Origin: an uncultured Oscillospiraceae bacterium
Lineage (GTDB): Bacteria > Bacillota > Clostridia > Oscillospirales > Oscillospiraceae
Length of the DNA stretch: 61,595 bases
NCBI GenBank assembly: GCA_947623745.1
Contig: CANQHN010000016.1
Location: 1 to 61,595, forward strand
Direction of reading: 5' to 3'
Under the pieces are notes generated by a model. The model made no database searches. It worked only from the letters and a program-made list of their open reading frames with translations, and had not been told where the DNA came from. Below are positions 6,601 through 22,715 of the stretch, piece by piece (within the stretch, counting starts at the first letter, position 1; every line of letters starts with the position of its first letter). Both the position numbers and the translations under genes were made by a program.

Positions 6601-9600
6601 ACAACCGCATCACCTACCGCTTCACGGAGAAGCTCACCGCGGCGCAGCTGGCCTCCGGCTATACCCTCCAGGAGATCAGCCACATCCAGCAGCGCGGGTC
6701 CGACAGTATCTACCGCCCCGGCACGCAGAGTATCCCCATCTACTCCTATACTGGCGCGACCTATGGCAATTTGTACCCCGGAGTTGAAAGTAACCCGACC
6801 GAAAACGGGCTGACCTGGGCGGTGGACCAAGACGGACAGCCGAACACGTCTGTGACGCCGACGGAGGAGCCCTTCGCCCACACCAACGCCGTCATGTGGG
6901 AGTACTATGCCACCATGGCCGCCGACGCCTCCGGCAACCACCACCAGCCAAGCGGTATGGAGAAGGAGACGGAGTCGTCCTCCACAGTATGGGTGGAAGG
7001 ATCTAAAAACACATATGTGAGTGAGGGAGAGTTCCGTGAGGTCGCAGACAACCCCAACTGCCGCGAGGTCAGTTCCGTCGATGATCTGAAGGTCGGTTTC
7101 TGCGACCTGCCGCAGGACGGCTCGATTCTCCACTACATGTACTACGAAGGCGAGCTTATCGACCCGCACTATAACGGCGAGGCGTCCACCTATCTGCGGA
7201 ACATGGCCCGCTACGGCGTCAGCCCCACGGTCCACTTCGCCGTGAACGGTGAGCCAGACCAGTCAACAGTCCCGGCGGAGTCCAACACCGATTACACCGG
7301 CGTGTACTCGGTCTTCGGCAACACCGGCTGGTTTGAGGAGCAGGCCAAGTTTATCAACACCTTCCAGCCGGGAGACATCTCCATCACGAAGAAGCTGGCG
7401 GCGGCCGAGGGCACGACGATCACGGAGAAAGACCGTGCAGCCAAGTTCGACTTTACGCTGAAGCTGGAGCAGCCGGACCCGTCCGCGATCCCGCTGCCGG
7501 AAACTCTGAGCTATACGATCACCGGCCCCGGGGCAGACGATACGGCAGACGGTGTGCTGTGGGCCTACAGCGAAACGGGCCCGAACGAACCGGATGGAAA
7601 CGATGTGTATGCCATCGAAGAGGACACATGGGTGTTTAAGCTCAGAGGGGATCAGACCATGACAGTCGAAGGACTGCCTATGGGGGCTGGCTACACCTAT
7701 ACGGTTTCCGAAACATATCCAGGCGGTTTTGAGGTGTCGGACGACTCCGGCGGCGGTATGGATACTGCCGGCACATACACAGTCACGGGAACGGTAGAGG
7801 CTGGCGGCGACGATCCCGTACAGGTGACCTTCACTAACACCAAGAAGAAGCCAGAGCCCACACAGGTGGATTTGGAGCTGCAAAAAACGGTGACAGTGAC
7901 GGACGGGACATTCAATTGGGAGTCCCAGGAGTTCACCTTCCTGGCGACACCCGATCCCTCCAACCCGGCAGACGACCCGATCACAACTCAGGGTGGCTGG
8001 AACCACCCGAACGAGGGCGCACTGACCGTCACAGTCAGCGGCCCGAATGCGGCGGGTGAGTCTTCCACCCCGGTGAATGTCTTCGGAGGCATGGAGTTTA
8101 CCAGGCCCGGCACCTACAAGTACACGGTGACGGAGAAGACGAGCAACCTTCCCGGCATCAGCAGCGATGGCAAAGCCTACAGCGTGGTCATTGAGGTCGC
8201 GGAGGAGTACGACGCGCAGGGATTCTATACAGGCAACCTGGCGGCGAAGATTACGGTCGATGGCGAAGAAGCGGACGACCCGTTGCAGTTCAAGTTCATC
8301 AACACCTACAACGAAGGGGAAATCGAATATCCTTTCCGCGCCAGGAAGGTCTTGCTCGGCGGAAAACAGCTGAAAAAGGATGATTTCCGCTTTACGCTGG
8401 AATGCGAGGACTTCGTGCCCGCAGGAGAGCCCCTGCCCGCCAGTGAGCCCGGAGAGCCGGATGGACCTACGTTTGAGGGTATGCAGAATGGTTCGGAATC
8501 CCTGCCCGACGGGGACGATTCCAACGACGACCCGTCGATGACCGGCCCGGAGATGGACGGGTCTGACACCAGCGAGCCCAGTCACTCTGAAGAGGACGAA
8601 GCGCCGCCCAGCAATATCATTTCCGACCCCGCGGCGCCCGGCGACGAGGACAGCGGTACATCCAGCTCCACCCCGCCCGAGCCCACTCCAGCCGAATCTG
8701 AGCAGGACGGGTCTGGCTCCAAGCAGGACGAACTGGATTCCAATCAAAACAGCACAGCGGACACTGTGCAGGATCCCGACATAGTGACAGACCCCAACGC
8801 TTCCTCGAACTCTGAGGATTCCTCTGGCAATTCGGACGGCATTGGCGCCGAAGGCACGGGAGTACCCGCCGAGGGGCCGCAGGAGCCGGCGGATACAGGA
8901 ACCACGCAGGACGGCGCACTCCCCTCTGAGCAATCGCCGGAGGACTCTCCAAGCGGAGATCCGGCTGAACAGCCGCCGGAGGGCATCCCAAGCGGAGATC
9001 CGGCTGAACAGCCGCCGGAGGGTGATCCAGACGGAGATCCGGCTACCGCTGGAGACGAGGATGAGGACCAGGGAACGGGTGTGCCAGACGGAGAGCAGTC
9101 CCTGGATCCAGACTACGACATCATGCCTCTCAGCGGCGGCTGGCCGTTCTCCCCCAGCGCCATTCATACGACCGGGAATGACGAGAATGGCCTGGTGCGT
9201 TTTGGCTCAGTGACCTTTGAGGAAGCTGGCACCTACACCTTCAAAATGTGGGAGGAACCGGGTACGGATTCCACCATCGAGTACGATGACAACGAGTACA
9301 CGATCATTGTCGTTGTCACAAAAGTGGGTGAGGCACTGGCGGTGGAAAGCGTTACCTATACTCCTGGCGTGACGGATATCCCCGTATTCACCAATGAGGT
9401 GAAGCCCGGTTCTCTGCATGTGGAGAAGGAAGTCACCGACACCGGCGACAAGGCCAAGGACTGGACCTTTACGGTGGACTTTACCACACCGGAGGGCTGG
9501 ACTGGCAGCTTGAAGGACACTGTGGAGCTGGATTTCAGTGTCAATGACGAAACGGCTCACAATGTGATCTGGAAAGGAGATGAGCTCACATTCACCCTGA

Positions 9601-11069
9601 AGCATGACGAATCTGTGGACATCACCAAACTGCCTGCCGATACGACCTATGCCGTCACAGAGATAGAGGCCGACGAGGACGGCTATACCACCACCGTAGA
9701 GGATGACGACGACGAGACTGATGGCGATTTTACGGACGGCAAGGGTGTCATTGAAGCGGAAATGACGGACAATGTAACATTCATCAATGACAAGCCAGAC
9801 GAACCGCCCCCGCCGCCCCCGGGGGACGAGAAAGGAAATCTGACCGTCACCAAGCGCGTCACCGGCGGTGGAAGCCAGAGCAAACAGTTCCACTTTTCCG
9901 TGGCCTTTGACGCAGGGATGGACTGGGACGGCGTCACCTGGACTCACAGCGGCGGCGGCAGCGTCCAGCGGGACGGCGATACGCTGGAATTCACCTTGAA
10001 GCACAACGAGTCCGTGACCGTCCGGGACCTCCCCGCTGGGGCGCGCTACACCGTGACTGAGCTGGACGCCAACGAGAACGGCTACACAACCACACCAAGC
10101 AGCGGAGAGCAAAGCGGGACTATCCCGAGCGGCAGTACGGCCCAGGCCAGGTTCATCAATGACAAGCCCGACGAGCCGCCCCCGCCGCCCTCTGACGACG
10201 AGGGAGATCTGCTGGTCAAAAAGACCGTCACCGGCGAAGGCGGCGACCGGGACAGAGAGTTCTGCTTCCAGGTGGAACTGAACAGACCCCTCACCGGCAA
10301 GTACGGCGATATGTACTTCGAGAACGGCGTAGCCAAGTTCACCCTGAGCGACGGCGAGAGCATGAGGGCCGAGGGCCTGCCCGCCGGTACCCGCTACACC
10401 GTCACCGAGTTGGACGCCGATGCCGACGGTTACAAGACCGATTCCAGCGGCGAGAGCGGCCAAATCCCTGACGGCGGGACCGCGAGAGCGGAGTTTGTCA
10501 ACCACAAAGACACCCCGGATGAGGATCACGGCGGCCTGACTGTCACTAAGACTGTCACGGGTAGCGCAGGCGACACCAATAAGGAATGGCATTTCCGGGT
10601 GGAGTTGAGCGAACCCCTTACAGGCCAGTATGGGGATATGTTCTTCACCAACGGCGTAGCCGAGTTCACGCTGAAGCACGGCCAGAGCGCCACGGCGATG
10701 GACCTGCCGGAAGGAATCACCTATACGGTGACGGAGGCCGAGGCAGATCAGGACGGATATGCCACCAGCGGTTCCGGAATAACGGGTATGATCCCAGGCG
10801 GCGGTACGGCAAATGCCGAGTTCGTCAATGATAAAAATGACGACACCCCGCCGCCGCCGGATAACCCACCGGACAATCCGCCAGATAACCCACCAGATAA
10901 CCCACCGGATAACCCGCCGGATCGCCCGCCGGATGATACGCCCAAGACGGACGACCCCCGTCACACATGGGTGTGGAAACTGGGCATGGGTCTGTCTCTG
11001 CTGGGCATGGGGCTTGTGATCTTCCCCTGGCCCTGGCAGAGAAGGAGGCGTAGACGCAGAGGGCGCTGA
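669..11069 (+). CDS. giant cell-wall surface protein (VWA, FctA-like and DUF5979-like repeats)
   Basis: A 3466-residue exported adhesin or pilin-like protein. GGGAGG lies just before the ATG. Residues 20-52 form a long signal peptide. A VWA domain has the MIDAS DMSGS at 166-170 and a distant MSDGG near 478, so the domain carries large insertions. A pilus-shell (Spy0128/FctA) type domain lies at about 2400-2545. A second such domain appears split by about 240 acidic, Pro/Ser-rich residues (about 2580-2815) containing a 14-residue tandem repeat. Four related domains (DUF5979-like, each ending in a VTE...YTVTE type core) follow at about 2914-3383. A Pro-Asp-Asn-Pro run leads to TPKTD at 3424-3428, one membrane helix and an Arg-rich tail. 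TPKTD is a non-LPXTG sorting-like motif. The sortase encoded next is the likely partner. Confidence 0.9.
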   Translation: MKVPKDLHMFFKSQHPKRLLKKQRRSALALLLCVCMILTLFDGIITPLAQAANITGPTLHIVEDTRVADPDTMDDYLNRLLTEASGSRYAGRVWTDKTVFAYDNGDDAKSVHFDGNNKITLSMDTDGYKGEVLFNSDFAHIFSTLASSQVVNEYPPSPVDLVIVFDMSGSMGQDTRYGIDAGGNTYVAHVAGEGDPVWPAQGVLMSDRIANSRVQATLDAINETIDTLMAQNPQNRVAVCGYGANAVVLMPLGHYQRTDVNGDKIIDDNDPYLSVGGMETLYHPSDLVYRTPDDDLEKEGLAHVDTAGWYWMNNRDTCYTVEVNAQMNTYTGILNENGDGEGKDGASGDDFWHDVKTTVSNNVLDSNGKHVKAFPGVADQAKEVDNETNQTKSQTIYASCSKSESTYEAGKADLTYAMASTEGLAADDYVGYFTNTQGGIYLAYKQLADSTATTYTEELSNGVISTVARIPAAIIMSDGGANFSFNEMGDNSGEQYSVNDWNLRYGQRNAESVKEYNEDETPDKSEWQEWINTGEYPPRPIYMNDDNYGAAAEGWSEAYKDGHDRDYLHRLGKDVYHDGNPGDEWYNVFLPGNDTLDHEQTAESTGPKGYWKGLEGIYNSGADYFQDGTLSTPPAWNTAGVLYSSDNDLGGTGGTIMEVLLTAAYMNDVVKEHYQNGWTKNNATPDSQIPLSTYTMNVDTVHVPQWGRWRLYPTLNPKEYALDDIGTGWGNNPQTNVKDKKLAETYEGTTWGTQGKEYIGYGAFSGLQNSWNTWKAGTDTDFATGTGTPRISIKHLDAGHTYQAGGGTDPVEVTNDEVISNIQYNDVFYDVTSSQLSGIFEEILELILGKVFVPVSGDNDAGVGDSITYQDPIGEYMEIKNGAITATPYHIKDGVGETLGSATKYDMAMLLFGEMHGLSRAGVYDWHWNDEWMEIHESELQGDAPFPEGWYKGDAASATYGGTGTTPDTGGYTSATQARADGWVFRLNYQTASQYVPILSNVTSPETVPEQMRSTVYTIYRFDCDPEDRDMLRRNPIYGSIPKEARDVWDELAGVYPNNTYDAAGLDPATYPGLYRLNDIRVWMEETGDFVDTDGAIAPNSGYDRSLYVNIPAAAIPTELATITLGRDGVLSYETNLGSDHEKGSFIMVENEDGETVQKQVTEDDYKNFCAQSTPFRLFYAVGLEEDLILRDSKGNQTGVDFNKISPEYISSHTVEGQDYVWFISNYYSGTRYGEYATDDTTHTRGDPTVTFSPGADNRYYVFQKPLPLYAHAYRLSEGELKPVDKTGDEDWGLNRSGNGETTWEKTKDAEGNEVQQQASSWIGGQYMGTYETKEKFLAAKEHLEERSGVKYITDSSNIKYEYVEDGIVFLQEDMLRHVTSTEGGGYTNESVSFSSDDYFFILLEFYVPYPETTGKDNYGKDVLGTQGGHMVQYALARKGSEFGSGFASSEIDNGDMLCWTDVQNHLNLEFTYLSKTDTGDLTRGEPTFEKLTESNREKLKDYLRDKCHINEELLDDQADYWLEMQNDPLVVAALKAAAGSGDTPVKEQFERYFSFSVAARPGGIRSGDMSNNLQYKGTIYYDETQLYNNNVTKTSNTYYLPTISDNSGTDDSVIINNYLGNNGRLEIANQMLHVTKMLQPPAGYELTDAQKNAEFNYQIFVQGVTGTRTAVRTEYNEYSDTWERRLAYIDVLTDNSDLVQTNDNTRALFVMETGSGSAGSTITARQVVQSGDEYYYANEDGTLPTDADGNPNPAQQVGLSERIYYLYLPSNGDPGMDTQHVRRLYQSNDYNGADKFTSGLDKNGTTFVRDGDPITPSVSGNRESLRTEEAGRPAGTRTYWAMDAELIPIEQVQDVESGVALNGDSWQHELGDHDDHQALTYHTFFIRRPSGDTSATDFTSPFQTRSAYMTVELNFGQNANDDGSSSGSMQVDDLYDSVIPSDDRPDLFGSLNAADIAASTAEFTLHHGEGLLLTGLDNRITYRFTEKLTAAQLASGYTLQEISHIQQRGSDSIYRPGTQSIPIYSYTGATYGNLYPGVESNPTENGLTWAVDQDGQPNTSVTPTEEPFAHTNAVMWEYYATMAADASGNHHQPSGMEKETESSSTVWVEGSKNTYVSEGEFREVADNPNCREVSSVDDLKVGFCDLPQDGSILHYMYYEGELIDPHYNGEASTYLRNMARYGVSPTVHFAVNGEPDQSTVPAESNTDYTGVYSVFGNTGWFEEQAKFINTFQPGDISITKKLAAAEGTTITEKDRAAKFDFTLKLEQPDPSAIPLPETLSYTITGPGADDTADGVLWAYSETGPNEPDGNDVYAIEEDTWVFKLRGDQTMTVEGLPMGAGYTYTVSETYPGGFEVSDDSGGGMDTAGTYTVTGTVEAGGDDPVQVTFTNTKKKPEPTQVDLELQKTVTVTDGTFNWESQEFTFLATPDPSNPADDPITTQGGWNHPNEGALTVTVSGPNAAGESSTPVNVFGGMEFTRPGTYKYTVTEKTSNLPGISSDGKAYSVVIEVAEEYDAQGFYTGNLAAKITVDGEEADDPLQFKFINTYNEGEIEYPFRARKVLLGGKQLKKDDFRFTLECEDFVPAGEPLPASEPGEPDGPTFEGMQNGSESLPDGDDSNDDPSMTGPEMDGSDTSEPSHSEEDEAPPSNIISDPAAPGDEDSGTSSSTPPEPTPAESEQDGSGSKQDELDSNQNSTADTVQDPDIVTDPNASSNSEDSSGNSDGIGAEGTGVPAEGPQEPADTGTTQDGALPSEQSPEDSPSGDPAEQPPEGIPSGDPAEQPPEGDPDGDPATAGDEDEDQGTGVPDGEQSLDPDYDIMPLSGGWPFSPSAIHTTGNDENGLVRFGSVTFEEAGTYTFKMWEEPGTDSTIEYDDNEYTIIVVVTKVGEALAVESVTYTPGVTDIPVFTNEVKPGSLHVEKEVTDTGDKAKDWTFTVDFTTPEGWTGSLKDTVELDFSVNDETAHNVIWKGDELTFTLKHDESVDITKLPADTTYAVTEIEADEDGYTTTVEDDDDETDGDFTDGKGVIEAEMTDNVTFINDKPDEPPPPPPGDEKGNLTVTKRVTGGGSQSKQFHFSVAFDAGMDWDGVTWTHSGGGSVQRDGDTLEFTLKHNESVTVRDLPAGARYTVTELDANENGYTTTPSSGEQSGTIPSGSTAQARFINDKPDEPPPPPSDDEGDLLVKKTVTGEGGDRDREFCFQVELNRPLTGKYGDMYFENGVAKFTLSDGESMRAEGLPAGTRYTVTELDADADGYKTDSSGESGQIPDGGTARAEFVNHKDTPDEDHGGLTVTKTVTGSAGDTNKEWHFRVELSEPLTGQYGDMFFTNGVAEFTLKHGQSATAMDLPEGITYTVTEAEADQDGYATSGSGITGMIPGGGTANAEFVNDKNDDTPPPPDNPPDNPPDNPPDNPPDNPPDRPPDDTPKTDDPRHTWVWKLGMGLSLLGMGLVIFPWPWQRRRRRRRGR

Positions 11070-11078
11070 CGAAACAGG

Positions 11079-11107
11079 CAGGGCGGTGGAGTCGTTCCAC
11101 CGCCCTG
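11079..11107 (+). terminator. strong hairpin after the surface-protein gene
   Basis: A 12-bp GC-rich stem (CAGGGCGGTGGA with its complement) with loop GTCGT lies 10 bp after the stop codon. No T-run follows, so it could stabilise or partly terminate the adhesin mRNA before the sortase gene. Confidence 0.5.
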
Positions 11108-11130
11108 TCCCCATAAGTGGTGATTGGTAG

Positions 11131-11979
11131 ATGACATTTGAGAAGTTAAAGAAAAAATGGAAGCGATTCAACCTGCGGGGAATGCTGTTCCTGCTGTTCC
11201 TGGGTGCGTTTTTTGTGTTCGGAGGGTTATATGTCTTCGACCTGTGGCGCGCCGGGAGAGAGGCGCGAGCCTTTGAGGACTTGGCGGCCCGAGTGGAGGA
11301 GCGCGTTGCCGCCGCTCCCGTCACGGGGCAGATAGTGGACCAATCTCCCACTACAAAGCAGGAGGAGCCTGTTTCGGGGCCCACACCCGAGGAGCTGCTG
11401 GCCGCCCGCCTGGCGGCCTATGGGGAACTGCGGGAGGAAAACCCAGATTTCTATGGCTGGCTGTCCATTGCGGACACGCAGTTAAATTACCCGGTCATGT
11501 ATACGCCGGACGATCCAGAGCACTACCTGCGCCGGTCATTTGACGGGAAATACTCTGTCAGCGGCACACCGTTTTTGGACGGTGCCTGTTACGAGGGCTG
11601 CGGCAATTACATCATCTACGGTCACATGATGCGGGACGGCAGCATGTTTGCTACCTTAAAGGACTATGCCAATGAGGAGTTCTGGCGGGAACACCCGGTC
11701 ATCTGCTTCGACACCCCAGAGCAGGCGGCGGAATATGAAGTTGTGGCCGCATTCTACTCCCGGGCCTACTACCAGGACGAGGAAGGCGTATTTCGGTACT
11801 ACCGCTATACCGACCTGACAGAACCCGTCCGGTTTGACGAGTTCCTGTCTAATGTCCGCGCCTGCGCCCAATATGACACCGAGGTGGATGTCCAGTACGG
11901 CGATGAGCTGCTTACCTTGTCCACCTGCAGTTACCACACCGACAACGGACGGTTCGTGGTGGTGGCCCGAAAGCAGTGA
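11131..11979 (+). CDS. class B-type sortase
   Basis: A 282-residue membrane-anchored transpeptidase that should cleave a wall-sorting motif and attach the protein to peptidoglycan or a pilin. An N-terminal membrane helix (about 17-37) follows a basic start. The catalytic residues are visible: His165 in IIYGHMM, Cys266 in TLSTC and Arg274 in NGRFVVV. The position of the His and the SGTPFLD segment fit the SrtB group. It lies 61 bp after the adhesin gene, whose C-terminus carries TPKTD instead of LPXTG, so the two are likely an enzyme-substrate pair. The start codon has only a weak Shine-Dalgarno, which suggests low expression. Confidence 0.92.
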   Translation: MTFEKLKKKWKRFNLRGMLFLLFLGAFFVFGGLYVFDLWRAGREARAFEDLAARVEERVAAAPVTGQIVDQSPTTKQEEPVSGPTPEELLAARLAAYGELREENPDFYGWLSIADTQLNYPVMYTPDDPEHYLRRSFDGKYSVSGTPFLDGACYEGCGNYIIYGHMMRDGSMFATLKDYANEEFWREHPVICFDTPEQAAEYEVVAAFYSRAYYQDEEGVFRYYRYTDLTEPVRFDEFLSNVRACAQYDTEVDVQYGDELLTLSTCSYHTDNGRFVVVARKQ

Positions 11980-12528: not shown

Positions 12529-13485
12529 ATGAATCGGCGTTCACTGATTGGACAGCGATTTGGCCGACTGATCGTGCTGGAGGACACCGGCGAACGGAAG
12601 GAACGTATGGTGGTATGGCGCTGCCGGTGCGACTGCGGAGGGGAACGGTTGGTCGTGACCAATAAACTCACCGGCGGAATAGTCACTGACTGCGGGTGTG
12701 TTCCAAGAAAGCTGGTGACAAACCGTGTGGCGGAGGATCTGACAGGCCGGCGGTTTGGCAGCCTGACGGTCCTGTACCGGATGGAAAATCGGAAAAACCG
12801 AACCCAGTGGATGTGCCGCTGTGACTGTGGGAAACTGCATCCTGTCATTTCACTGGATCTCAAGCAGGGGAAGATAAAAAGCTGCGGGTGTAAGCAATAC
12901 ACATGGATTGGCGGAGAGGATCTGACCGGAAAAAGGTTCGACCGGGTAGTGGCCCTCTACCCAACACGGAAGCCGCATAAGGGGTGCAGCGCGCAGTGGC
13001 ATTGCCGCTGTGACTGCGGCCGGGAATTCGACACAACGGCTTACAGCCTTCTCACCGGCGTGACGCACAGCTGCGGCTGCTTGGTAAAGGAGTTGGGTGT
13101 CCAGCTTCATACTTATCTCCACACGCTGGAGGATACTTGCGTGGAGAACCTGGTCAGGAGCCAAAAAACTTTCAAAAATAACACATCCGGCTTTCGAGGC
13201 GTGATGGCAACACGGAACGGTACTTATCGCGCAGTCATCACTTTTCAGAAGAGAAATTACTATCTTGGCACCTTCAAGAGCTTTCAGGAGGCGGTAGATG
13301 CTCGTCTGGATGCGGAAAAGGTCCTTCATACCGGCTTTGTCCAAGCCTACGGGGATTGGCAGGCGGTAGCGGACACTGATCCGGGTTGGGCGGCAGAGAA
13401 TCCGTTTTACTATCGAGTAAAGCATGAAAACGGGACTTTTTATATTGAAACCAACAGCCCAGATGACTGTAAGGGGCTCGTCTGA
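12529..13485 (+). CDS. zinc-ribbon-repeat / AP2-domain DNA-binding protein
   Basis: A 318-residue protein made of three about 60-residue repeats. Each starts with G-x-RFG-x-L-x-V and ends with a W-x-CRCDCG ... DCGC zinc-binding knuckle. They are followed by an AP2/ERF-like domain at about 217-268 (SGFRGV ... YLGTFKSFQEAVDAR). Bacterial AP2 domains are DNA-binding modules, often found with HNH homing endonucleases, but no HNH motif is present. The protein may be a stand-alone DNA-binding factor or a remnant of a homing system. It is paralogous to the next gene, which has four such repeats, so a tandem duplication with repeat-number change is likely. Confidence 0.8.
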   Translation: MNRRSLIGQRFGRLIVLEDTGERKERMVVWRCRCDCGGERLVVTNKLTGGIVTDCGCVPRKLVTNRVAEDLTGRRFGSLTVLYRMENRKNRTQWMCRCDCGKLHPVISLDLKQGKIKSCGCKQYTWIGGEDLTGKRFDRVVALYPTRKPHKGCSAQWHCRCDCGREFDTTAYSLLTGVTHSCGCLVKELGVQLHTYLHTLEDTCVENLVRSQKTFKNNTSGFRGVMATRNGTYRAVITFQKRNYYLGTFKSFQEAVDARLDAEKVLHTGFVQAYGDWQAVADTDPGWAAENPFYYRVKHENGTFYIETNSPDDCKGLV

Positions 13486-13549
13486 ACGGATTCATGCGGC
13501 AAAAAAGTTGAAAAATATCGGAATATTGGACAGATAACAGGCTATACGA

Positions 13550-14713
13550 ATGGAAAAGCAAGTTGACATGACACAACAGGCATGGATCGGGCAGCGCTTT
13601 GGAAAGCTGACAGTCATAGGGGACTCCGGGCAGCGGCGTGGAGGCAGCATTCTCTGGCGCTGCATATGCGACTGCGGACGCGAGACCTTCGTGAAGCGGT
13701 ATCAGCTGACCAGCGGCGCGGTCACAGACTGCGGCTGTACCCCAAGACCACCGCGGCCCCGGGTAATGGATCTGATCGGACAGCGATTCGAAAAGCTGAC
13801 CGTGGTGGAGGACTCTGGGCAGCGGAGAGGCACCAGCGTTCTCTGGCGCTGCCAATGTGACTGTGGGAATGAAATCTTGGCGACGCGGGGCCAACTGGTC
13901 AGCGGCTATGCCGCAAGCTGCGGCTGTGTCCCCCGGCACCGCAACGCCAGGGGGCATGTTGAGAACCTGACTGGACGGCAGTTCGGAAAATTGACCGTTA
14001 TTGAACGGGCTGAGGGCAGGAAAAGAGATGTCTATTGGCGCTGCCGGTGCAGTTGCGGCAGGGAGTGTACGGTTACGGACACATGCCTGAAAACTGGAAA
14101 TACCAGAAGCTGTGGCTGCACACGACACAGCACTTCGTATAATAAACGGGATTTGACTGGACAGCGTTTTGGACGCTTGACCGTCCTATACCAGACTGGC
14201 GAACAGACTTCTCCAAAATCAGCCGTCTGGCATTGCCAGTGCGACTGTGGGAATGAGATCGATGTGTCCCGCAAGAAACTTACAGACGGTATGACGCAGA
14301 GCTGCGGCTGCTGGAAAAAGGAACAGAGCGCCAAAATATATGAATATATGCACTTTCAGGACAACACTTGTGTGGAGCACCTGAGAAGCATCCGGTCGGG
14401 CGCGAGAAAGAACAAATGTGGATTCCGCGGATTGTTTCAGCAAAAGGATGGGAAGTACCGGGTGACGATTGCCTTTCAAAAAGCACACTACTACCTCGGC
14501 TGCTATAAAGATTTCAATAAGGCGGTGCGCACACGGCTGGACGCGGAGGAATTGCTTCACGCGGGCTATTTGAACGCCTATGAACGGTATACGAAAAAGG
14601 CGGAGGTGGATCCCTCGTGGGCGTCGGAGAATCCGTTCTACTACAGGGTGGTAAGGGAAAACGGGACCTTTCGCATAGAAACAAATTCTCCTGATGCTCT
14701 ACCCGCAGATTGA
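13550..14713 (+). CDS. zinc-ribbon-repeat / AP2-domain DNA-binding protein (paralog)
   Basis: A 387-residue paralog of the gene 64 bp upstream. It has four GxRFGKLTV ... CDCG ... SCGC repeats instead of three, then an AP2 domain at about 288-338 (CGFRGLFQQ ... YYLGCYKDFNKAVRTR). Both proteins end with the same E-N-P-F-Y-Y-R-V segment. The regularly spaced CxCxC and CGC clusters suggest one zinc site per repeat, giving a modular DNA reader. No nuclease residues are seen. ATG 13550 has a poor Shine-Dalgarno, and ATG 13568 is an alternative start. Confidence 0.8.
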   Translation: MEKQVDMTQQAWIGQRFGKLTVIGDSGQRRGGSILWRCICDCGRETFVKRYQLTSGAVTDCGCTPRPPRPRVMDLIGQRFEKLTVVEDSGQRRGTSVLWRCQCDCGNEILATRGQLVSGYAASCGCVPRHRNARGHVENLTGRQFGKLTVIERAEGRKRDVYWRCRCSCGRECTVTDTCLKTGNTRSCGCTRHSTSYNKRDLTGQRFGRLTVLYQTGEQTSPKSAVWHCQCDCGNEIDVSRKKLTDGMTQSCGCWKKEQSAKIYEYMHFQDNTCVEHLRSIRSGARKNKCGFRGLFQQKDGKYRVTIAFQKAHYYLGCYKDFNKAVRTRLDAEELLHAGYLNAYERYTKKAEVDPSWASENPFYYRVVRENGTFRIETNSPDALPAD

Positions 14714-14830
14714 CCGAACTCTGACCGCAGGAAGGTATCCTATCTGTAGAAACATGTATATGTAATATCCTGTGTGTCGTAATGCACATGACAAAAAGAA
14801 TCCCAACGCTCCCCTTGCGGAAAGCGCAAG

Positions 14831-14859
14831 TTTACAGCGGCCGAGCCGGATGGTAAACT
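14831..14859 (+). promoter_or_regulatory. promoter-like pair in leader copy 1
   Basis: TTTACA (14831-14836), a 17-bp spacer and TAAACT (14854-14859) match sigma-A -35/-10 boxes at 5/6 and 4/6. Transcription would start near 14866, placing the 15-nt tandem repeats at the very 5' end of the leader RNA. The boxes are also the arms of a dyad, so an operator or RNA stem is the alternative. Confidence 0.5.
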
Positions 14860-14909
14860 GAAGGTGTATTTCAGGGCGGAGCATTGTAGGGCGGAGCATT
14901 TTAGGGTGG

Positions 14910-15086
14910 ATGGAAAGGAGGCCAGGGGAGCAGTCTGCCCCCAGACCAGTCCACAAGGCTGACCAGGAATACGAAAACACAAACAGGACCGAGAAGACCG
15001 TAATTGCCCAATGGGCGGTTGCGGCCTTTTTTTGTCCAAAAACGGAAAGGAGAATCAACATGAAATGGCCAATCAAAGCAGGCTGA
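14910..15086 (+). CDS. possible leader peptide crossing the attenuator (58 aa)
   Basis: An ORF from ATG 14910 stays open through the tandem-repeat end, the terminator hairpin and its T-run, and stops 22 bp inside the helicase gene. The homologous frame in leader copy 2 (39314-39472) is also open and stops 8 bp inside its first gene. A ribosome reading this frame would melt the terminator. The start has only AGGGTGG immediately before it, which is poorly spaced, so translation is unproven. Confidence 0.35.
   Translation: MERRPGEQSAPRPVHKADQEYENTNRTEKTVIAQWAVAAFFCPKTERRINMKWPIKAG
14996..15033 (+). terminator. intrinsic terminator / attenuator in leader copy 1
   Basis: A 14-nt arm GACCGTAATTGCCC (14996-15009), loop AAT, 3' arm 15013-15026 and seven T (15027-15033). 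Three pairs are G-U and one is a mismatch. In copy 2 the mismatched base is changed so that it pairs. It lies only 31 bp before the helicase start, so transcription must pass it to express the operon. Confidence 0.8.
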
Positions 15087-18000
15087 TCCCCGTCAGCTAC
15101 TACAACCCCTCCCAGGAGGTGCGCCTGTCCGCCTACGCGGATACCATCGTCTATGAGCAGGAAAGCCCCAGTAGAAAGATCCTTCGGGCCATTCGATTCG
15201 GCGGTTACCCGGAGATGGTGCGCGGCCTCGCGGACGCCATCTATGCCGGCGCGGTTTTGGACGCCCGTGTGGGAGATACTCCTCTGCGGCTGGAAGGGCA
15301 GGTCAAACGCTACCGGCGGCAGGTCACCCACGATGGGGTGTATGCCGAGGCGACGCTGCTGGCCATCGACGATGAGCAGGAAACAAAAGCAACGGGAAAA
15401 GAAAATGAGGATGAAGGACAGGAGAAGCTGGATCTGCCGCCGCGCAAATGTATCATCTTCTGCCCGGAAAACGACAGGGACCGCCTCTTTGAAGAGGTGG
15501 ACCGAAAAACGGCGGTGCCGCTGATCCCGGAGTTCCGGGACTATGTGCTGGCTGAGTTGGAGCGCCGCGGCATCCTGAAAAAGCTCCAGGTCATCTCCCT
15601 GCGAGAGAAGCTGGACGCCTGGGTGCTGCAGTGCCAAAACGACGACGCCAACATTATCTCCGTAGTGGAGGACGGTCTCAAAAACGGGGCCATCGCCATC
15701 CCGGGGACGGTCCGTGCGCCGAACGGTTTTGATGGCGTGGAGAATGTCACCAGCTATCTGAACACCTTCGGCGTAACAGCGGCCGAGCGCATCCGCAAGC
15801 AGTTCCAGCCTCTGTTCGACCCTGCCAGCGACCCGCTCTCCCCGGAGGTCCTGGCCGTCAACGACTACATCCGGGCACATGCCGGGTACTCCCTTTACGA
15901 CGCCCAGCTTGCCGTGGCCGAGGCCGTGAAACGCCAGCTGCAAAAGCACAAATGCGGATTCATCGTAGCGGAATGCGGGTCGGGCAAAACAAAAATCGGC
16001 GCGACAGCCATGGCCGCCGTGTACGCCCTGCGGGCCGAGCAGGCGGGCCGGGGCAGGCAAAAGACTTTTAATGTGATCCTCTGCCCCTCCCATGTGGCGA
16101 ACAAGTGGGCGCGGGAGATCGGCGAAACGCTGCCGGACACCGCCGGCGTGGTGGTACGGGGGAATTTGGAGCTGGACCGGCTCTATACCCTCTATGAAAA
16201 AGGGGACAAGAGCATCTATGCCATTATCTCCAAGGAGAAGGCCAGGGACGGCTATATGAAGCGGCCCGCGGTCATCTGGAACCGGCGCCAGGAAGCCTAT
16301 CTCTGCCCGGACTGCCTGCAGCCCATCGAGGCGGCCTTCTCCGAGGACGGCGTCCGGTACATGGGGAAGGTCGGCCAGCTCTTCTTCCGCACGGAGAACA
16401 GCAAAAACCACCAATGCGGCAACTGCGGTTCGCCCCTGTGGTCAGCGGTCAATCCCGGCTGCAGCGGCGGCTGGGTGAAGATTGGCGGCTATGGCTGGGT
16501 GGACCGCTGCAGGGCCGGAGAGCACCTGACAAAAACAAAGCATGAGCCGACATTGGAACAGCTGCGGAAGATTGCTGATGACCCGGACGGGTATTATCCC
16601 GTGATCGGAGCCTGCCGGCGCTATCCCATGAGCTCCTACATCAAGCGCAAATACAAAGGAAAACTGGACGGCTGTATCGTGGATGAGCTCCATGAGTACA
16701 ACAACGACAGCGGCCAGGGCGACGCCATGGCGGAGATCTTTTCCGCCGCGGACAGGGTCATCGGCATGACCGCGACCCTCATCAATGGCTATTCCTCCGG
16801 CATTTTCCATCTGCTCTACCGTGTCTGCCCGGATCTCATGATGCGGGACGGCAAGCGTCATGACTCCCCAGGCGATTTTGACGCGGAGTACGGCGTGGTG
16901 GAGAACACCTATGAGGAAGAAGACAATGATTACGCCGCCAACCGCAGGACCCATAAGCGAAAAATGAAGTCCCGGCAGCTGCCCGGTGTGTCGCCGCTGG
17001 TATACTCCCGCTTTCTTTTGGAGCAGACCGCCTTCCTGTCCCTGTCCGATATGGGAAAGGATCTCCCCGACTATGAGGAGATCCCCGTGCCTCTGGACAT
17101 GGAGGAAAATGTGGCCGACGAATATAAGCGTGTGGAGGATGCCCTGCGGCGGGTACTCAAAACGGACAGAAAGGCGGCAAAGAAGATCCTCTCGGCCTAC
17201 CTCAACCTGCTGACCGTCTACCCGGACCAGCCCTACGACCAGCCGGAGATCCTCTACCCCGGTACGGATACTGTGCTGGTGAAGGCCCAGGATACAGGAG
17301 ATTTCAGCACGATCGGTCAAAAGGAACGCACTGTGCTGGACATTGTACGACGCAAAGTGGAGAGCGGCGAACGGGTGCTGATCTACACCAGCTGGACGCG
17401 CATCGACTCCCAGAAAAAGCTCCTGAAGCTGCTGACCGAAGAAGGCTACCGTACGGAGATCATGAGTGAAAAAATCCGCCCCGGCGCACGGGAGGAATGG
17501 GTACAAAAGCGCCTCTCAGCCGGGATGCAGGTGCTCATCACCAATCCGAGTCTTGCGGAGACGGGCCTTGACCTCAATGCTTTCACCACCCTCGTTTTCT
17601 ACAGCATGGGCTATAAGCTGTTCACGCTGAGGCAGGCGTCGCGGCGCTCCTGGCGCATCAACCAGACGGCGCCCCGGGTGGAGGTCTATCTGCTCTACTA
17701 CAAAAACACCATGCAGCATAAGGCCATGAAACTCATGGCCTCCAAGCTGGCGGTGGCCGGCATCATCGAGGGGAATTTCACCGAAGAGGGTCTGGCTGCC
17801 ATGAGCGATGTGCAGGACATGACCTCTCAGATGGCCAAAGAGCTGATGCTGGGCATCCGGGACAATGTGGAGGACATCGCCTCCGCTTTCAAGAAGATGG
17901 CGGTCATCAACCCGCAGCGGAACAGGCCGGGAAGTAAGGCGGCAGAAGAATGTGCGGCGATACAGGCGGAACCTCCCGTGAGGGAGCTCTCGGAGGTGCT

Positions 18001-18190
18001 AAACGCCGCGCCGATGACCGAGCCGGAAGCGGCATCCGAAGAAAAGCCGCCCTACAGGACTGGTATTGACCCTCAAAAGGCCGCGGAGCTGGCGGCGCTC
18101 CTGGAGAAACAGCAGAAGCCCAAGAGAACAAAGAAGGCAGCCGTGGATGAAAACCAGCTGACCCTCTTTGATCTGGGCTTTGTGGCATGA
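15065..18190 (+). CDS. SF2 DNA/RNA helicase, first gene of core operon 1
   Basis: A 1041-residue SF2 helicase. The ~290-residue N-terminal part has no domain I recognise. Walker A is ECGSGKTKIG near residue 304, a zinc ribbon (CPDC ... CGNC) is inserted at about 415-460, motif II is DELHEY near 540, and motif VI is QASRRSWRINQ. The SNF2-like C-terminal lobe ends in an acidic Pro/Glu tail. A likely role is unwinding DNA during element replication. ATG 15065 lies 12 nt after AAAGGAG. ATG 15060 is better spaced but opens only an 8-codon frame, which is also the end of the leader ORF. The upstream ATG 15011 lies in the terminator loop and is rejected. Confidence 0.88.
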   Translation: MANQSRLIPVSYYNPSQEVRLSAYADTIVYEQESPSRKILRAIRFGGYPEMVRGLADAIYAGAVLDARVGDTPLRLEGQVKRYRRQVTHDGVYAEATLLAIDDEQETKATGKENEDEGQEKLDLPPRKCIIFCPENDRDRLFEEVDRKTAVPLIPEFRDYVLAELERRGILKKLQVISLREKLDAWVLQCQNDDANIISVVEDGLKNGAIAIPGTVRAPNGFDGVENVTSYLNTFGVTAAERIRKQFQPLFDPASDPLSPEVLAVNDYIRAHAGYSLYDAQLAVAEAVKRQLQKHKCGFIVAECGSGKTKIGATAMAAVYALRAEQAGRGRQKTFNVILCPSHVANKWAREIGETLPDTAGVVVRGNLELDRLYTLYEKGDKSIYAIISKEKARDGYMKRPAVIWNRRQEAYLCPDCLQPIEAAFSEDGVRYMGKVGQLFFRTENSKNHQCGNCGSPLWSAVNPGCSGGWVKIGGYGWVDRCRAGEHLTKTKHEPTLEQLRKIADDPDGYYPVIGACRRYPMSSYIKRKYKGKLDGCIVDELHEYNNDSGQGDAMAEIFSAADRVIGMTATLINGYSSGIFHLLYRVCPDLMMRDGKRHDSPGDFDAEYGVVENTYEEEDNDYAANRRTHKRKMKSRQLPGVSPLVYSRFLLEQTAFLSLSDMGKDLPDYEEIPVPLDMEENVADEYKRVEDALRRVLKTDRKAAKKILSAYLNLLTVYPDQPYDQPEILYPGTDTVLVKAQDTGDFSTIGQKERTVLDIVRRKVESGERVLIYTSWTRIDSQKKLLKLLTEEGYRTEIMSEKIRPGAREEWVQKRLSAGMQVLITNPSLAETGLDLNAFTTLVFYSMGYKLFTLRQASRRSWRINQTAPRVEVYLLYYKNTMQHKAMKLMASKLAVAGIIEGNFTEEGLAAMSDVQDMTSQMAKELMLGIRDNVEDIASAFKKMAVINPQRNRPGSKAAEECAAIQAEPPVRELSEVLNAAPMTEPEAASEEKPPYRTGIDPQKAAELAALLEKQQKPKRTKKAAVDENQLTLFDLGFVA

Positions 18191-18206
18191 GAATGGAGGA
18201 ATGAAT

Positions 18207-19172
18207 TTGAGCGAAGCGAAACTGATGACGCCGTTATTTCATGGCGGTAATTTCAACGCAGCCGGGAAAAAGATGAAGGCGGTATTCCTGCGGGAAGTAT
18301 CCAACGGCACGGACGCCTATCGCCTCTGGCGCAGATATGGAGCGCCTGACCTGGACTATCCCAGGGCGGAAAATGATACCCATATCCTCTACATTGAGGT
18401 GGGCGGGTATCTGGCGCCCCTTCGCATGACCGAATACGGCCTGATCGGCCGCTGCGGTACCCCGCCTGCCGTTGAGACGCTCTACGGCGGAGAAGAAGGG
18501 CGTGAAAAATATTTCAACGCTCTGCGCGAGACCGGCCAGGCGTACACAGAGGCCATCCCCGCAGCCCTTGCGAAAGAGGAAGAGGCCATCCGCCGGCTGG
18601 GCGTCGATCCCGTCCGCCAGGCCGATTATATCAAAATTCTGGTGGATCAGCATGTTTCTGTTTATCTCTCCTCTAAGGAGAGCGGCGGAGCCAGCTTCCC
18701 GGACTTCATCGGCGCGGCGGTGCTGGACGAACTTGCCCAGTGCAGGGAACTGTCCAGCATATACAAAGCAAAAACACGGGCGGAACGCGAGGCACGCCGG
18801 GCTAAAGTGGAGGCGGAAGAGAAAAAGCGCCGCGAGGAGGTCAACCGGGAAGCAGAGCGGCAGATCCATCAGGCGACCCATGTGCTCCGATTCGGGGGCG
18901 TCCTGGAGAATCAGCCCATCCGATTCTATCGGGAGGACGGCGGCATCGGAAAATATTCCATCGTCAACCACCTGATGCGGCTGTATGGGGTCGATGTCCC
19001 CCTCCGCACCCAGGGCTGGATCAATGAAAAGCTGGTCAGTGTCACCGTGAGGGATGGCCGCTGCACGAATATCCGGTATCTGAAGTCGAACGGCGGACGG
19101 TGCTCGGAGAAGTTCTTCGAGTGTATCGACGAACTGATTCGTAAGACAGGAGAGGAGCCGGAGGCGGCATGA
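18207..19172 (+). CDS. hypothetical mobile-element protein
   Basis: About 321 residues from TTG 18207, which sits 6 nt after GGAGGA. ATG 18201 is the alternative but has no spacing. The N-terminal domain (to about 90) is followed by a charged coiled coil (about 185-225, rich in E, K and R: REARRAKVEAEEKKRREEV). A C-terminal domain with GKYSIVNHLMRLYGVDVPL comes last and resembles a small winged-helix fold. No enzyme motif is seen. Its place between a helicase and a sliding clamp suggests a replication-linked role. Function unknown. Confidence 0.75.
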   Translation: MSEAKLMTPLFHGGNFNAAGKKMKAVFLREVSNGTDAYRLWRRYGAPDLDYPRAENDTHILYIEVGGYLAPLRMTEYGLIGRCGTPPAVETLYGGEEGREKYFNALRETGQAYTEAIPAALAKEEEAIRRLGVDPVRQADYIKILVDQHVSVYLSSKESGGASFPDFIGAAVLDELAQCRELSSIYKAKTRAEREARRAKVEAEEKKRREEVNREAERQIHQATHVLRFGGVLENQPIRFYREDGGIGKYSIVNHLMRLYGVDVPLRTQGWINEKLVSVTVRDGRCTNIRYLKSNGGRCSEKFFECIDELIRKTGEEPEAA

Positions 19173-19261
19173 AGGAACGGAATATCCGGACGAGGCCCAA
19201 TGGAAAAATCATGCAAACGCACGGGCCATACGCCGCGAAAGAAGGAGGAACAGGATTGTGA
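19169..19261 (+). CDS. small bridging ORF (30 aa)
   Basis: A 30-codon ORF starts MKERNIRTRP. Its ATG overlaps the stop of the previous gene (ATGA at 19169-19172), and its stop overlaps the GTG start of dnaN (GTGA at 19258-19261). Exact overlaps at both ends are typical of translationally coupled genes. The protein is basic and has no motif. It may be a real micro-protein, or just a path that carries ribosomes to dnaN, whose own AAGGAGGAA lies inside it. Confidence 0.45.
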   Translation: MKERNIRTRPNGKIMQTHGPYAAKEGGTGL

Positions 19262-20394
19262 GAATCACAATAAACCGGCAGGAGGCGTTGGCTCTTGCCA
19301 AAGCCGCGGAGAGCATCGCACCCAGCAAGGCCGTCATGGACGAGCTGCGCTGCGTGCTGCTGGAAACCGGAGAGGACAGTAAGCTGACCATGGCCGCCAC
19401 CAATATGGAGGTCGCCCTGGAGCGGCGTATGCAGGCGGATATCCAGGAGGGCGGCGCCCTCCTCATCAATGCCAGGCTTTTTGCCGGTATGCTGGGGCTC
19501 CTGGGCGGCGAAGCCGTTACCATCCAGGGAGAGGACGGCCGGCAGGCGGAGATCACAAGCGGCGAGTGCTGTTATAGGATCCCTGTCATGTCCATCGCCA
19601 AATATCCCCGCATGGAGATCCCCTTCCCGGAGGACAGTGTCGTTGTGACCAATATCCCCCGTATGGCGGCCAGAACGGTATTCGCGGCGTCGGAAAACGA
19701 GAGTACGCCCGCCATGCAGTGCGTCAAGCTGGTCTTTACCAGCGACGGCCTGAAGGCGGTAAGCTGCGACGGCTCCCGGCTCGCCGCCGCCAGGGGTGAG
19801 AGCAAAGGGGATGCTTCGGTCAGTATGCTCATCCCGGCCGTGTCCCTCAGCAAGCTGGCCCGTCTTGTAGGCAGCAAAGATGAACTGGATGTGGGCACCA
19901 CGGGCAAAAGCGTGGTTTTCATGAAAGAGGATTTCATGTTTTCCGCCAGGCTCCTGGAGGGGCAGCATGTGGATCCTGATTTTATGCTGAGCCATGTGCA
20001 AAGCGCCTTCACGATCCTCACCGATGCCGCCGGACTCTACGACGCGGTATCCGGCGTTTCCGTGGTGGCAGGTGAGCGGGACGCGGTCAGTCTCCGCTTT
20101 TCCGGCGGCAATATCAAGATCCGCTGTGAAAGCGAGGGGTGCTCCTCGGAGAGGGATATGGAGGTCGTGGCGCTGTCCGGGAACCCGGAGGGCGAATACT
20201 GGTACAACTCCCGGCAGCTCTCCCAGTGCCTCGCCGCCCTCGGCGGCACGCTGATGCTGGAGGTCGGGCAAAATGGGATCCTGGTCATGCGGACCGATGA
20301 TCTCATCTGCCTGCAGCTCTCCCGGCGCAAGCCCACGATCCTCCGGGCGAAGGAAGAGAAACCGCGGAAAAGAGCGGCCAAGGCGGCCGCATAA
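19258..20394 (+). CDS. dnaN: DNA polymerase III beta sliding clamp
   Basis: 378 residues, the usual clamp length. The start MRITINRQEALALAKAAESI, SGECCYRIPVM and KLVFTSDGLKAVSCDGSRLA follow the three-domain DnaN pattern. A clamp tethers polymerases and other clamp-binding proteins to DNA. GTG start with GGAGGAA 8 nt upstream. This is very likely a second, element-borne clamp, because no chromosomal replication genes (dnaA, recF, gyrB) are next to it. It may direct the element's Y-family polymerase or a host replicase to element DNA. Confidence 0.93.
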   Translation: MRITINRQEALALAKAAESIAPSKAVMDELRCVLLETGEDSKLTMAATNMEVALERRMQADIQEGGALLINARLFAGMLGLLGGEAVTIQGEDGRQAEITSGECCYRIPVMSIAKYPRMEIPFPEDSVVVTNIPRMAARTVFAASENESTPAMQCVKLVFTSDGLKAVSCDGSRLAAARGESKGDASVSMLIPAVSLSKLARLVGSKDELDVGTTGKSVVFMKEDFMFSARLLEGQHVDPDFMLSHVQSAFTILTDAAGLYDAVSGVSVVAGERDAVSLRFSGGNIKIRCESEGCSSERDMEVVALSGNPEGEYWYNSRQLSQCLAALGGTLMLEVGQNGILVMRTDDLICLQLSRRKPTILRAKEEKPRKRAAKAAA

Positions 20395-20400
20395 GGAGGG

Positions 20401-20799
20401 ATGCCCTTGGAGATCTCGAAGATTTGCCGCTACTGCGGCGGCGTGGTCCGTATGGTGCCCGCGCGGAATGTCTACGGCCCGGCTGTTGACCGGCTGGGGC
20501 TGCAGAACGAGTACATTTACCAGTGCCAGAACTGCACCGCCAGGGTCGGATGCCATAAGGGGACGACGCGCCCATTGGGTAATGTGGCCAATGAGACGCT
20601 GCGCCTCAAGCGCATGGAGACCCATCAGGTGTTCGACGCCTTCTGGAAACAGAAGGGTATGAGCCGGACCAGAGGCTATAAGTGGCTGGCCGGACAGATG
20701 GGGCTTCCCGAGCGGCTGGCCCACATCGGCGGATTTGAAATGGATCAATGCCAAAAGGTCATTGACCTTTGCAGAAAAACAAAGGAGGACGCGGCGTAA
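20401..20799 (+). CDS. zinc-finger-containing protein (DUF3268-like)
   Basis: 132 residues. A four-Cys zinc site (CRYCGG near residue 9 and CQNC near 42) is followed by a G-C-H-K-G-T motif and a helical region with DAFWKQKGMSRTRGYKWLAGQMGL. This matches the small zinc-finger proteins often annotated on plasmids and prophages. It probably binds nucleic acid. It begins 7 bp after the dnaN stop and overlaps the next gene by one base, so it is in the same operon. Confidence 0.72.
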   Translation: MPLEISKICRYCGGVVRMVPARNVYGPAVDRLGLQNEYIYQCQNCTARVGCHKGTTRPLGNVANETLRLKRMETHQVFDAFWKQKGMSRTRGYKWLAGQMGLPERLAHIGGFEMDQCQKVIDLCRKTKEDAA

Positions 20800-21728
20800 T
20801 GCGTGAAAAAACTGCGTGTCCGCATAGAGCGGAAAAACTGTGTTCCTGCGCGCCTGTGAAAAACAGGGGGAAGGATATCTCCGCCCTGGCCGTCCATGTG
20901 GCGGACAATATGGCGGACATCCGCTGGGAGTTAGAGTACACGGACATCAACCGCCCTGAAAAGCGGCGGCTGTGCCGTGTGGGTTCCTGCCGTATCTGCG
21001 GCGGACGGCTCTGCCATGATGTGGACGCCTTTGACCACCTGGCCGGAGACGATTTCCTGGCGGCGGTCTACCGCCACCTGTATGAGATCCATAACGCCGG
21101 GGACAACCACATGGAATGTTCGGAATTTCGCCTTCGGTTCGTGGAGATGTTCCATGAGCAGGACAGGCCCCTGATCCGAAAATGGCTGGACGGGGCAGGA
21201 AACCGCCGTGTGTCCCATGTGTGCTGTCAGTATGGGAGCGCAGGGGCCATGGCAGATCCCGGCAAGGAAGTCAAGGTCTACACCATCATCCGCACCGGCG
21301 TTGACGCGGAAAGGGGGCATTTCCCGGAGCCCCAGAGCGAGGGCAGTTTCCTGTCATTTCTCCGGGCCAAAGCGGAGCTTCAGAAACTGGTCATAGCTGA
21401 GAAGGATGAACTGGACGGCCGCTATGACTGCGAGGAATACGATGAGAATTACTGGGAAGCGTACCAGGACGGTTATGCCACCGCTCTTTCCACCAGGCTG
21501 GAGATCATCTCCTCCGAGCTGCATTTAACCCCGGAGGATTTCCGGCCGGCTGATTATCTGGAGCAGTGCGCGGAGTGCTATGGCGCCTATGGAACACCCT
21601 CCTGCAGGGATGAGGAAAGTGAATGCGGGATCCAGGAGAACGCACAGGAGGAGCTGGCCCGTATCCAGGCCGAAGAAGCTGAGGCCATACGGCGGCTTTC
21701 TAAGACGCCTGTCCTTGGGACAGCGTAA
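20799..21728 (+). CDS. hypothetical Cys-rich protein
   Basis: 309 residues from ATG 20799, which shares its A with the TAA of the previous gene. AAGGAGG lies 11 nt upstream. The N-terminal part has CPHRAEKLCSCAPV and CRICGGRLCHD, suggesting one or two zinc sites. The middle contains KVYTIIRTGVDAERGHFPEP. The C-terminal half is acidic and helical with another Cys cluster. I do not recognise a family. Its position points to a core operon accessory factor. Confidence 0.7.
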   Translation: MREKTACPHRAEKLCSCAPVKNRGKDISALAVHVADNMADIRWELEYTDINRPEKRRLCRVGSCRICGGRLCHDVDAFDHLAGDDFLAAVYRHLYEIHNAGDNHMECSEFRLRFVEMFHEQDRPLIRKWLDGAGNRRVSHVCCQYGSAGAMADPGKEVKVYTIIRTGVDAERGHFPEPQSEGSFLSFLRAKAELQKLVIAEKDELDGRYDCEEYDENYWEAYQDGYATALSTRLEIISSELHLTPEDFRPADYLEQCAECYGAYGTPSCRDEESECGIQENAQEELARIQAEEAEAIRRLSKTPVLGTA

Positions 21729-21746
21729 GGAACGAGGGGGATTCAG

Positions 21747-21941
21747 ATGTCAGGAGAACGAAAAACATATCCGTTCAGAATCCATTACAAGGAAAAAGAC
21801 GGAAAGATCGGCCTCTATTACATCAGGGAAACCAACGCCATTTGCGCCATCACCGCTTTCCTCTCCCGCACGGCGAATGAGCGTGAGAGCGTCATTTCGG
21901 TCGATGCGGCCTCCGGGCGAGATTGGAAAAGGGTGCTTTGA
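21747..21941 (+). CDS. small hypothetical protein
   Basis: A 64-residue protein with GAGGGGG before its ATG. It is predicted mainly beta with one helix (HYKEKDGKIGLYYIRETNAI, then a short helix and VISVDAASG). It overlaps the start of the PAPS-reductase-like gene by four bases (TTGA at 21938-21941), so the two are translationally coupled and may work together. It has no cysteine-rich site. Function unknown. Confidence 0.6.
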   Translation: MSGERKTYPFRIHYKEKDGKIGLYYIRETNAICAITAFLSRTANERESVISVDAASGRDWKRVL

Positions 21942-22699: not shown

Positions 22700-22715
22700 C
22701 GAAGGAGGGATCCAT

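Follow-up and report, generated by a model that had tools for sequence, protein, structure and literature searches.

A duplicated promoter–leader cassette before two core operons of a probably conjugative Oscillospiraceae element as a candidate two-level switch

Control by a leader RNA and a terminator is already known in conjugative elements, as the accounts of canT and conAn describe. In Tn916, canT is described as overcoming several terminators, foreign ones included, in a processive manner (PMC11658703), and in pLS20, conAn and the protein ConAn1 are described as acting together over more than 20 internal terminators (PMC8955417). Little was found in print on the control of conjugative elements in gut Oscillospiraceae, and our literature search found no description of the cassette reported here. 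The window, i.e. the whole stretch of 61,595 bases that was analysed, is the entire contig C16 of a 3.05-Mb host genome assembled in 76 contigs. The relatives recovered in the helicase search described below bear names such as Flavonifractor, Oscillibacter and Flintibacter.

The duplicated cassette and the two operons

The window contains two near-identical units of ∼244 bp, each placed before a run of genes that we read as an operon. The units at 14809–15052 and 39213–39455 are identical at 237 of 244 positions, with one gap, and their initial 164 bases show no difference. The flanks upstream of them are unrelated (28% identity over 36 nt), and the homology spans 14809 to GGAAAGGAG ahead of the first gene and ends at the Shine-Dalgarno sequence. 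A sequence-only reading of the window had claimed the near-identity, the identical first ∼164 bp, the differing upstream sequence and the end of homology, together with the promoter-like pair, the tandem repeats and the terminator, and these observations were borne out. Each leader stops at the Shine-Dalgarno sequence of the first gene of its run, and no copy beyond the two was found in the 3.05-Mb assembly. The features that the text refers to are as follows (window coordinates).

14814–14830, unstranded: putative dyad operator of copy 1, CTTGCG-GAAAG-CGCAAG, centred 44 nt 5′ of the predicted start
14831–14859, + strand: predicted promoter of copy 1, with −35-like TTTACA, a 17-nt spacer and an extended −10 (TGg TAAACT)
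14866–14875, + strand: predicted leader 5′ end and 5′ strand of helix P1 (GTATTTCAGG), from the start of the covariance hit and the P1 duplex test
14873–14910, + strand: 15-nt tandem repeats, AGGGCGGAGCATTnT twice and a partial third, AGGGTGGA, from the sequence, unit consensus and spacing
14924–14942, + strand: hairpin P3 (GGGG...CCCC) with conserved AGTnTGCCC
14963–14972, + strand: 3′ strand of P1 (CCAGGAATAC)
14986–15037, + strand: intrinsic terminator, with stem 14998–15024 and U-tract 15027–15033
15045–15053, + strand: Shine-Dalgarno sequence of the first gene in operon 1 (last homologous position 15052)
15065–18190, + strand: first gene of operon 1, a 1041-aa helicase (Helicase_C, ResIII)
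18168–28897, + strand: remainder of operon 1, read as an operon from its layout
39218–39234, unstranded: putative dyad operator of copy 2, same sequence as copy 1
39235–39263, + strand: predicted promoter of copy 2, from the sequence
39270–39442, + strand: leader RNA of copy 2 (P1, repeats, P3, terminator), covariance model match of 125.6 bits
39465–52195, + strand: operon 2, read as an operon from its layout
52215–52245, + strand: strong terminator closing operon 2, from a pattern scan
53581–54084, + strand: sigma-70 region 4-like regulator (phrog_36), a weak candidate for the operator-binding protein

In operon 1, the helicase is followed by a DnaN-like clamp, DUF3268, a weakly PAPS-reductase-like protein, a sigma region 2 protein, MoxR AAA, LPD28, SSB and VWA. 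Operon 2 encodes PRTRC_A-like JAB and PRTRC ThiF-like proteins (both under NCBIfam cut-offs), DUF6094, Rad52, an SMC-like ATPase, DUF6744, and CHC2-like and DUF4120-like proteins (both under the Pfam cut-off). The element is mobile and probably conjugative. A scan of 49 window ORFs gave no match to transfer families; in the related element of genome G291, the 19 kb located 5′ of the counterpart of copy 1 contain VirB4/TraG-like, VirD4-like and RepA_N genes, which suggest a conjugative element, and a TrbL-like gene below the cut-off. No PF03432 relaxase was found near the G291 cassette. This relaxase was discarded as a marker of the element; it is present in 10 of 10 genomes, yet not consistently close to the cassette.

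Several further features of the window were recorded. The sigma region 2-only protein of operon 1 (22900–23256) and the sigma region 4-like protein (53581–54084) are possibly the halves of a split sigma factor, and 24143–25522 and 27272–28897 form a RavA/ViaA-like MoxR AAA and VWA pair inside operon 1. The operons are separated by an antiparallel block on the minus strand (30725–39055; SLH/GLUG surface protein, YpsA and UmuC-like polymerase), which looks like cargo. The stretch 669–11979 encodes a 3466-aa surface protein with isopeptide domains and, after it, a sortase; 12529–14713 encodes an adjacent pair of proteins with similar starts, the first of which matches PHROGs HNH endonuclease families; and four large serine recombinases follow one another at 54713–61435.

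Operator, promoter and leader RNA

The first inverted repeat of the cassette, identical in the two window copies (17/17), is most likely a DNA operator, to judge from its position and pattern of variation. It was analysed in a set of 46 copies, drawn from part of all hits and chosen so that no contig entered under two names. At a fixed position, with its centre 44 nt upstream of GTATTTC, the symmetry of the dyad is 0.82, and at the remaining centres tried (30 to 61) it is 0.12–0.48, so symmetric half-sites occur at a fixed promoter position, as expected of a DNA operator. The adjacent promoter is well conserved: −10 positions −12, −11 and −7 are T, A and T in all 44 copies counted, the TG of the extended −10 is present in 35 of them, and TATACA or TTTACA adjoins the dyad in 29. 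The sequence-only reading had taken the inverted repeat for an RNA hairpin, an interpretation that we rejected. The repeat lies 5′ of the promoter and would therefore be absent from a transcript that starts there. Furthermore, its arms vary like DNA half-sites. The pair cells of 42 distinct copies contain 47 mismatches among 252, and the two that are G-U both fall in G106b and G123b, which the dyad table shows out of register; these two copies were omitted when G-U cells and promoter positions were counted, and from the between-element control described below. In the remaining 40 copies, none of 37 mismatches is G-U; if G-U were expected in 1 of 6, the chance of this would be 0.001, a figure that, like the shuffle counts below, overstates independence because the copies are related.

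The transcript is predicted to begin near GTATTTC. The transcribed part consists of P1, a helix that closes the domain, then AGGNNNGA repeats spaced by ∼15 nt, the hairpin P3 and an intrinsic terminator that covaries strongly; the predicted start and the U-tract are 140–207 nt apart (median 156.5, n = 42). Of 200 shuffles, 199 fold less well than the leader RNA (z −2.56). In P1, GTATTTCAGG pairs with CCTGGAA plus flank, with a mean energy of −9.9 kcal/mol, compared with −9.1 when partners are swapped and −6.4 when they are shuffled, and the own partner is better than the swapped one in 32 of 46 copies. As judged by eye, the diverged leader L159 retains P1 as GTATTTAGG/CCTAAATAC, and L161 and L162 retain the strand CCTAAATAC. 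Support for a helix P2 is weak (permutations did as well in 48 of 2000 cases; own pairing stronger in 25/43). The repeat unit is AGGGCGGAG(T/C)A, with AGGTAAGAT-type units in diverged leaders. The spacing is 15 nt in 79 of 100 intervals across copies, and the number of repeats differs among copies; unit counts made with a regular expression are too high for the window, where three units are visible. A G-quadruplex reading of the repeats was disfavoured by eye, AGGTCTGAG and the diverged AGGTAAGAT units being without G runs. An internal Shine-Dalgarno-like AAAGGAGG without a start codon, to which the sequence-only reading had drawn attention, is present in just 7 of 46 copies and so was not supported.

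The terminator lies directly ahead of the first gene. The single mismatch of the copy 1 stem (14998–15024) is paired in copy 2, and the whole is enclosed by a GGAC/GTCC stem that straddles the U-tract. In alignment A1, double changes were found in 18 of 43 pairs (8.6 in shuffles), including 11 among the 19 terminator pairs. In alignment A2, which was fitted to the structure of the model and whose counts thus lean towards it, they were found in 25 of 38 pairs (9.7 in shuffles), distributed as 14/19 in the terminator, 4/4 in the stem straddling the U-tract, 3/9 in P1 and 4/6 in P3. In agreement with the view that the leader is not a described RNA class, Rfam 15 gave no match at the gathering cut-off in the window and 16 helicase loci; at a lax threshold, the region 14700–15100 gave two matches, both on the opposite strand (E 2.6 and 3.5).

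Occurrence of the cassette and likeness of its copies

The check that had been proposed along with the sequence-only reading, a covariance model, was carried out with model R1, built from 27 leaders. R1 scored at least 50 bits before 26 of 30 helicase loci (this set overlaps the family genomes below, e.g. L017 and G380 C30). Among the loci without such a hit, L039 and L043 start inside the gene at a contig end, the helicase of L034 is missing its first 309 residues, and L037 (Massiliimalia, with 45% identity) reaches 23.4 bits, its promoter, repeats and terminator being diverged but, as judged by eye, retained. Independently of the leader, 400 family genomes were searched for the JAB protein as a check, which gave 25 matches in 21 genomes. 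In 12 of the 21, the JAB locus has a leader of at least 50 bits (G000, G207, G285, G380, G342, G070, G291, G311, G180, G262, G253 and G106), three have weaker hits of 32–35 bits (G030, G287 and G337), and in G275 the contig end cuts the leader within the terminator. In the other five (G031, G155, G174, G185 and G333) no leader was found at the JAB locus, and the JAB match is partial or broken there.

In the same 400 genomes, R1 reached at least 50 bits in 20, the own genome included, and 49 had hits at E 0.01; 20 of 400 is a lower bound, because the 32–35-bit JAB hits and a 37-bit hit on G380 C2 look genuine. Of 394 genomes from the order, none but the own genome scored at least 50 bits; true diverged leaders score 32–39 bits, and weaker hits were present in G443 and G551. 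No DNA match to the leader was found in plasmid and phage collections, and a scan of viral contigs with ThiF gave no relatives. A scan of viral contigs for the repeat pattern gave three contigs, with covariance-model hits in two. Leader copies are borne by L144 and L145, filed as viral in IMG/VR, which may be mobile elements rather than phages. Diverged leaders with the promoter, AGG-type repeats, P1 or terminator were noted in L037 (about 2700–2980) and before JAB in L159, L161 and L162.

Placement of the cassette is recurrent. Leaders are present in 19 of 20 family-genome stretches, 21 leaders altogether, and the next gene encodes the helicase in six cases, JAB in eleven and MoxR in one, with three leaders lacking a close window-type gene. 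Helicase and JAB copies occur on a single contig in G207, G291, G106 and the window, and on different contigs in G380 and G180, G380 having an additional JAB copy. In five of these six genomes, the helicase and JAB copies are mutual nearest neighbours in A2, with identities of 0.73–0.97 compared with 0.51–0.71 for the next best: window 0.97 (next 0.71), G207 0.88 (0.70), G106 0.82 (0.66), G380 C30/C12 0.75 (0.67) and G291 0.73 (0.51). The G180 helicase copy, located on another contig, has 0.63 identity to the JAB copy and is not its nearest neighbour; the MoxR and JAB copies of G180 C6 pair with each other at 0.85 (next 0.70), but their operators agree at 0.59, no better than the background of 0.57. 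Nearest-neighbour pairing also fails for the third copy in G380 and for the second copies in G285 and G253.

In paired copies the upstream flanks are unrelated, and the promoter spacer is alike (0.71–1.00) in the window, G207, G291 and G380, which indicates that duplication or gene conversion contributes; these processes could explain much of the likeness of helicase/JAB pairs. When the core and second copies of G285 and G253 are compared, the operators agree at 1.00 and 0.94, and the spacers at 0.21 and 0.29 (between-element mean 0.31). In a control of 935 between-element pairs, operator identity was at least 0.94 in 29, of which 10 had a spacer below 0.4. The likeness of paired copies, together with the divergence between elements, makes co-evolution of regulator and site testable.

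The leader repeats were also found at six of 10 integrase loci (G285 C14, G155 C60, G357 C62, G290 C16, G380 C2 and G206, the last with a fragmented integrase) and were absent from those of G291, G000 C60, G207 and G285 C4. The integrase is a tyrosine integrase, and the copies upstream of it are without the usual terminator, so the RNA may do something else. A copy on G253 C47, classed with the integrases, has its downstream gene off the contig. A xerDC RNA (RF03062) lies between leader and integrase in L088 (2448–2571) and L099 (8870–9014); further on, L088 contains a c-di-GMP-I riboswitch (5745–5828).

A candidate two-level switch and its relation to known systems

We consider it rather probable that both core operons are driven in step by the 244-bp unit, acting as a switch with two levels. 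At the first level, an element-encoded dimeric DNA-binding protein would bind the dyad at −44, which adjoins the weak −35 of the extended −10 promoter, and set initiation. At the second level, the transcript from near GTATTTC would fold into a P1-closed domain containing P3 and the AGGNNNGA repeats. Polymerase would by default halt at the intrinsic terminator, with its U-tract at 140–207 nt; when a trans-acting factor is present, probably a protein on the repeats, it would read through into the 13–14 kb operon. Of this, the sequences themselves show the cassette with its conserved parts and placement, P1 and the terminator helices, and the likeness of most pairs of copies in one element. The weak support for P2, the operator comparison in G180 and the integrase copies lacking the usual terminator count against the switch. 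If this is right, the covariance model and the −44 dyad form a searchable signature for where such elements keep their on/off switch.

The sequence-only reading had proposed a shared RNA-based switch acting by attenuation or processive antitermination. The common control unit with a covarying terminator, found in relatives, stands; attenuation by alternative pairing does not. No antiterminator helix excluding the terminator was found: the pairing energy was −10.9 kcal/mol for own, −11.3 for swapped and −11.8 for shuffled sequences, and the own pairing was stronger in 15 of 42 copies, so the classical attenuator with alternative helices was rejected. LoaP-dependent antitermination was rejected as well. 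A search of 18 of the 20 strong-hit genomes for LoaP found no NusG paralogue in any of them; 16 have one NusG, as does the own genome, and G106 and G311 (87% and 78% complete) have none. UNCG hairpins of the dfn type, with at least 4 bp, occur in only 2 of 46 leaders, both inside terminator stems as judged by eye. CsrA control through repeated GGA was also rejected, CsrA being present in 5 of 11 genomes and absent from the own genome. What remains as the best reading is a putative trans-acting factor on the leader RNA.

For the protein on the operator, the sigma region 4-like protein was considered. It was matched in 11 of 19 genomes, eight beyond the own at E ≤ 1e-14 with 29–47% identity. Its similarity did not follow that of the operator over 8 elements (rho −0.17, p 0.74), with agreement for the closest pair alone (G253/G291), which leaves it a weak candidate for the operator-binder.

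Processive antitermination, in which the leader RNA, alone or with a protein, would alter RNA polymerase and make it pass this terminator and later ones, was the other part of the earlier proposal and now appears improbable. A leader RNA does lie between the predicted promoter and the terminator, as antitermination calls for, its repeat and hairpin domain is beside the promoter, and long operons follow. However, few intrinsic terminators lie inside the operons: besides the terminator closing operon 2, the pattern scan of the plus strand gave merely two weak internal sites (22737 and 49567), with another beyond operon 1 (29090), and the totals exceed shuffles by no more than one standard deviation. 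In favour of this mechanism, four of the seven copies without the usual terminator have an unrelated strong terminator at +206 to +257, but one resembling that of G285 C14 is also located 5′ of the leaderless G000 C60 integrase (by eye), so such terminators may belong to the integrase unit.

It is likewise unlikely that the cassette is a pure promoter module, in which regulation would rest with the operator and promoter only, the terminator would insulate while letting a constant part of transcription through, and the repeats would be downstream DNA sites for the same regulator or another one. That the operator differs among elements and is common to some co-resident copies, that no mutually exclusive RNA structure exists and that the direct repeats begin at about +8 would all fit. 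Against it, P1 and the stem straddling the U-tract co-vary, the usual 15-nt period is by our reasoning not a whole number of helical turns, and a terminator 3′ of the promoter would, as an insulator alone, waste transcripts. A small-molecule riboswitch acting on the terminator would account for a multi-helix domain closed by P1 ahead of a terminator, but we regard it as very unlikely given the lack of an alternative terminator/antiterminator helix, the differing repeat numbers and the element-specific drift of the repeat domain, which would be unusual for a ligand pocket. Recent duplication of a promoter region by recombination, with no special function, is hardly credible: the window copies are 97% identical and share even the unconstrained spacer, but the two-copy layout recurs in several diverged elements with identity between copies down to 0.73.

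The two-level switch can be extended to a bolder proposal, which we put forward tentatively and with some doubt. The leaders may form a new class of antitermination RNA, in which a variable number of ∼15-nt AGGNNNGA repeats dock an element-encoded protein, the leader is closed by P1, the operator is specific to the element, and every core operon, as well as the integrase in some elements, has a copy of the cassette ahead of it. A single regulator and a single antiterminator would then switch replication, repair and integration together, and the copies would evolve in concert, giving each element a private version.

When compared with described systems, the cassette shares features with several. 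The xerDC RNA (RF03062) is an Rfam cis-regulatory RNA adjoining integrases that have a leader copy further upstream; it is a separate RNA, and the scans made gave no Rfam match for the leader itself. LoaP/dfn systems, as described (PMC12691694), similarly have a 5′ leader with an RNA element, an intrinsic terminator and a long operon; here, in contrast, there is no NusG paralogue (18 genomes), and UNCG hairpins occur in only 2 of 46 leaders. As in the account of conAn (PMC8955417), an RNA antitermination component would stand at the start of a long mobile-element operon, but few internal terminators were found in these two operons. The canT system, as described (PMC11658703), also belongs to a conjugative element of Gram-positive hosts, and there too DNA-processing genes are preceded by a terminator and by a leader RNA close to the promoter. 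Here, in contrast, a short cassette with its own terminator stands before each operon, and the operator is built in. If the proposed switch is right, the cassette offers a compact system in which RNA-controlled read-through can be tested for mobile elements. As far as we have found, the combination of an operator, a repeat-bearing RNA and copies before each operon is new.
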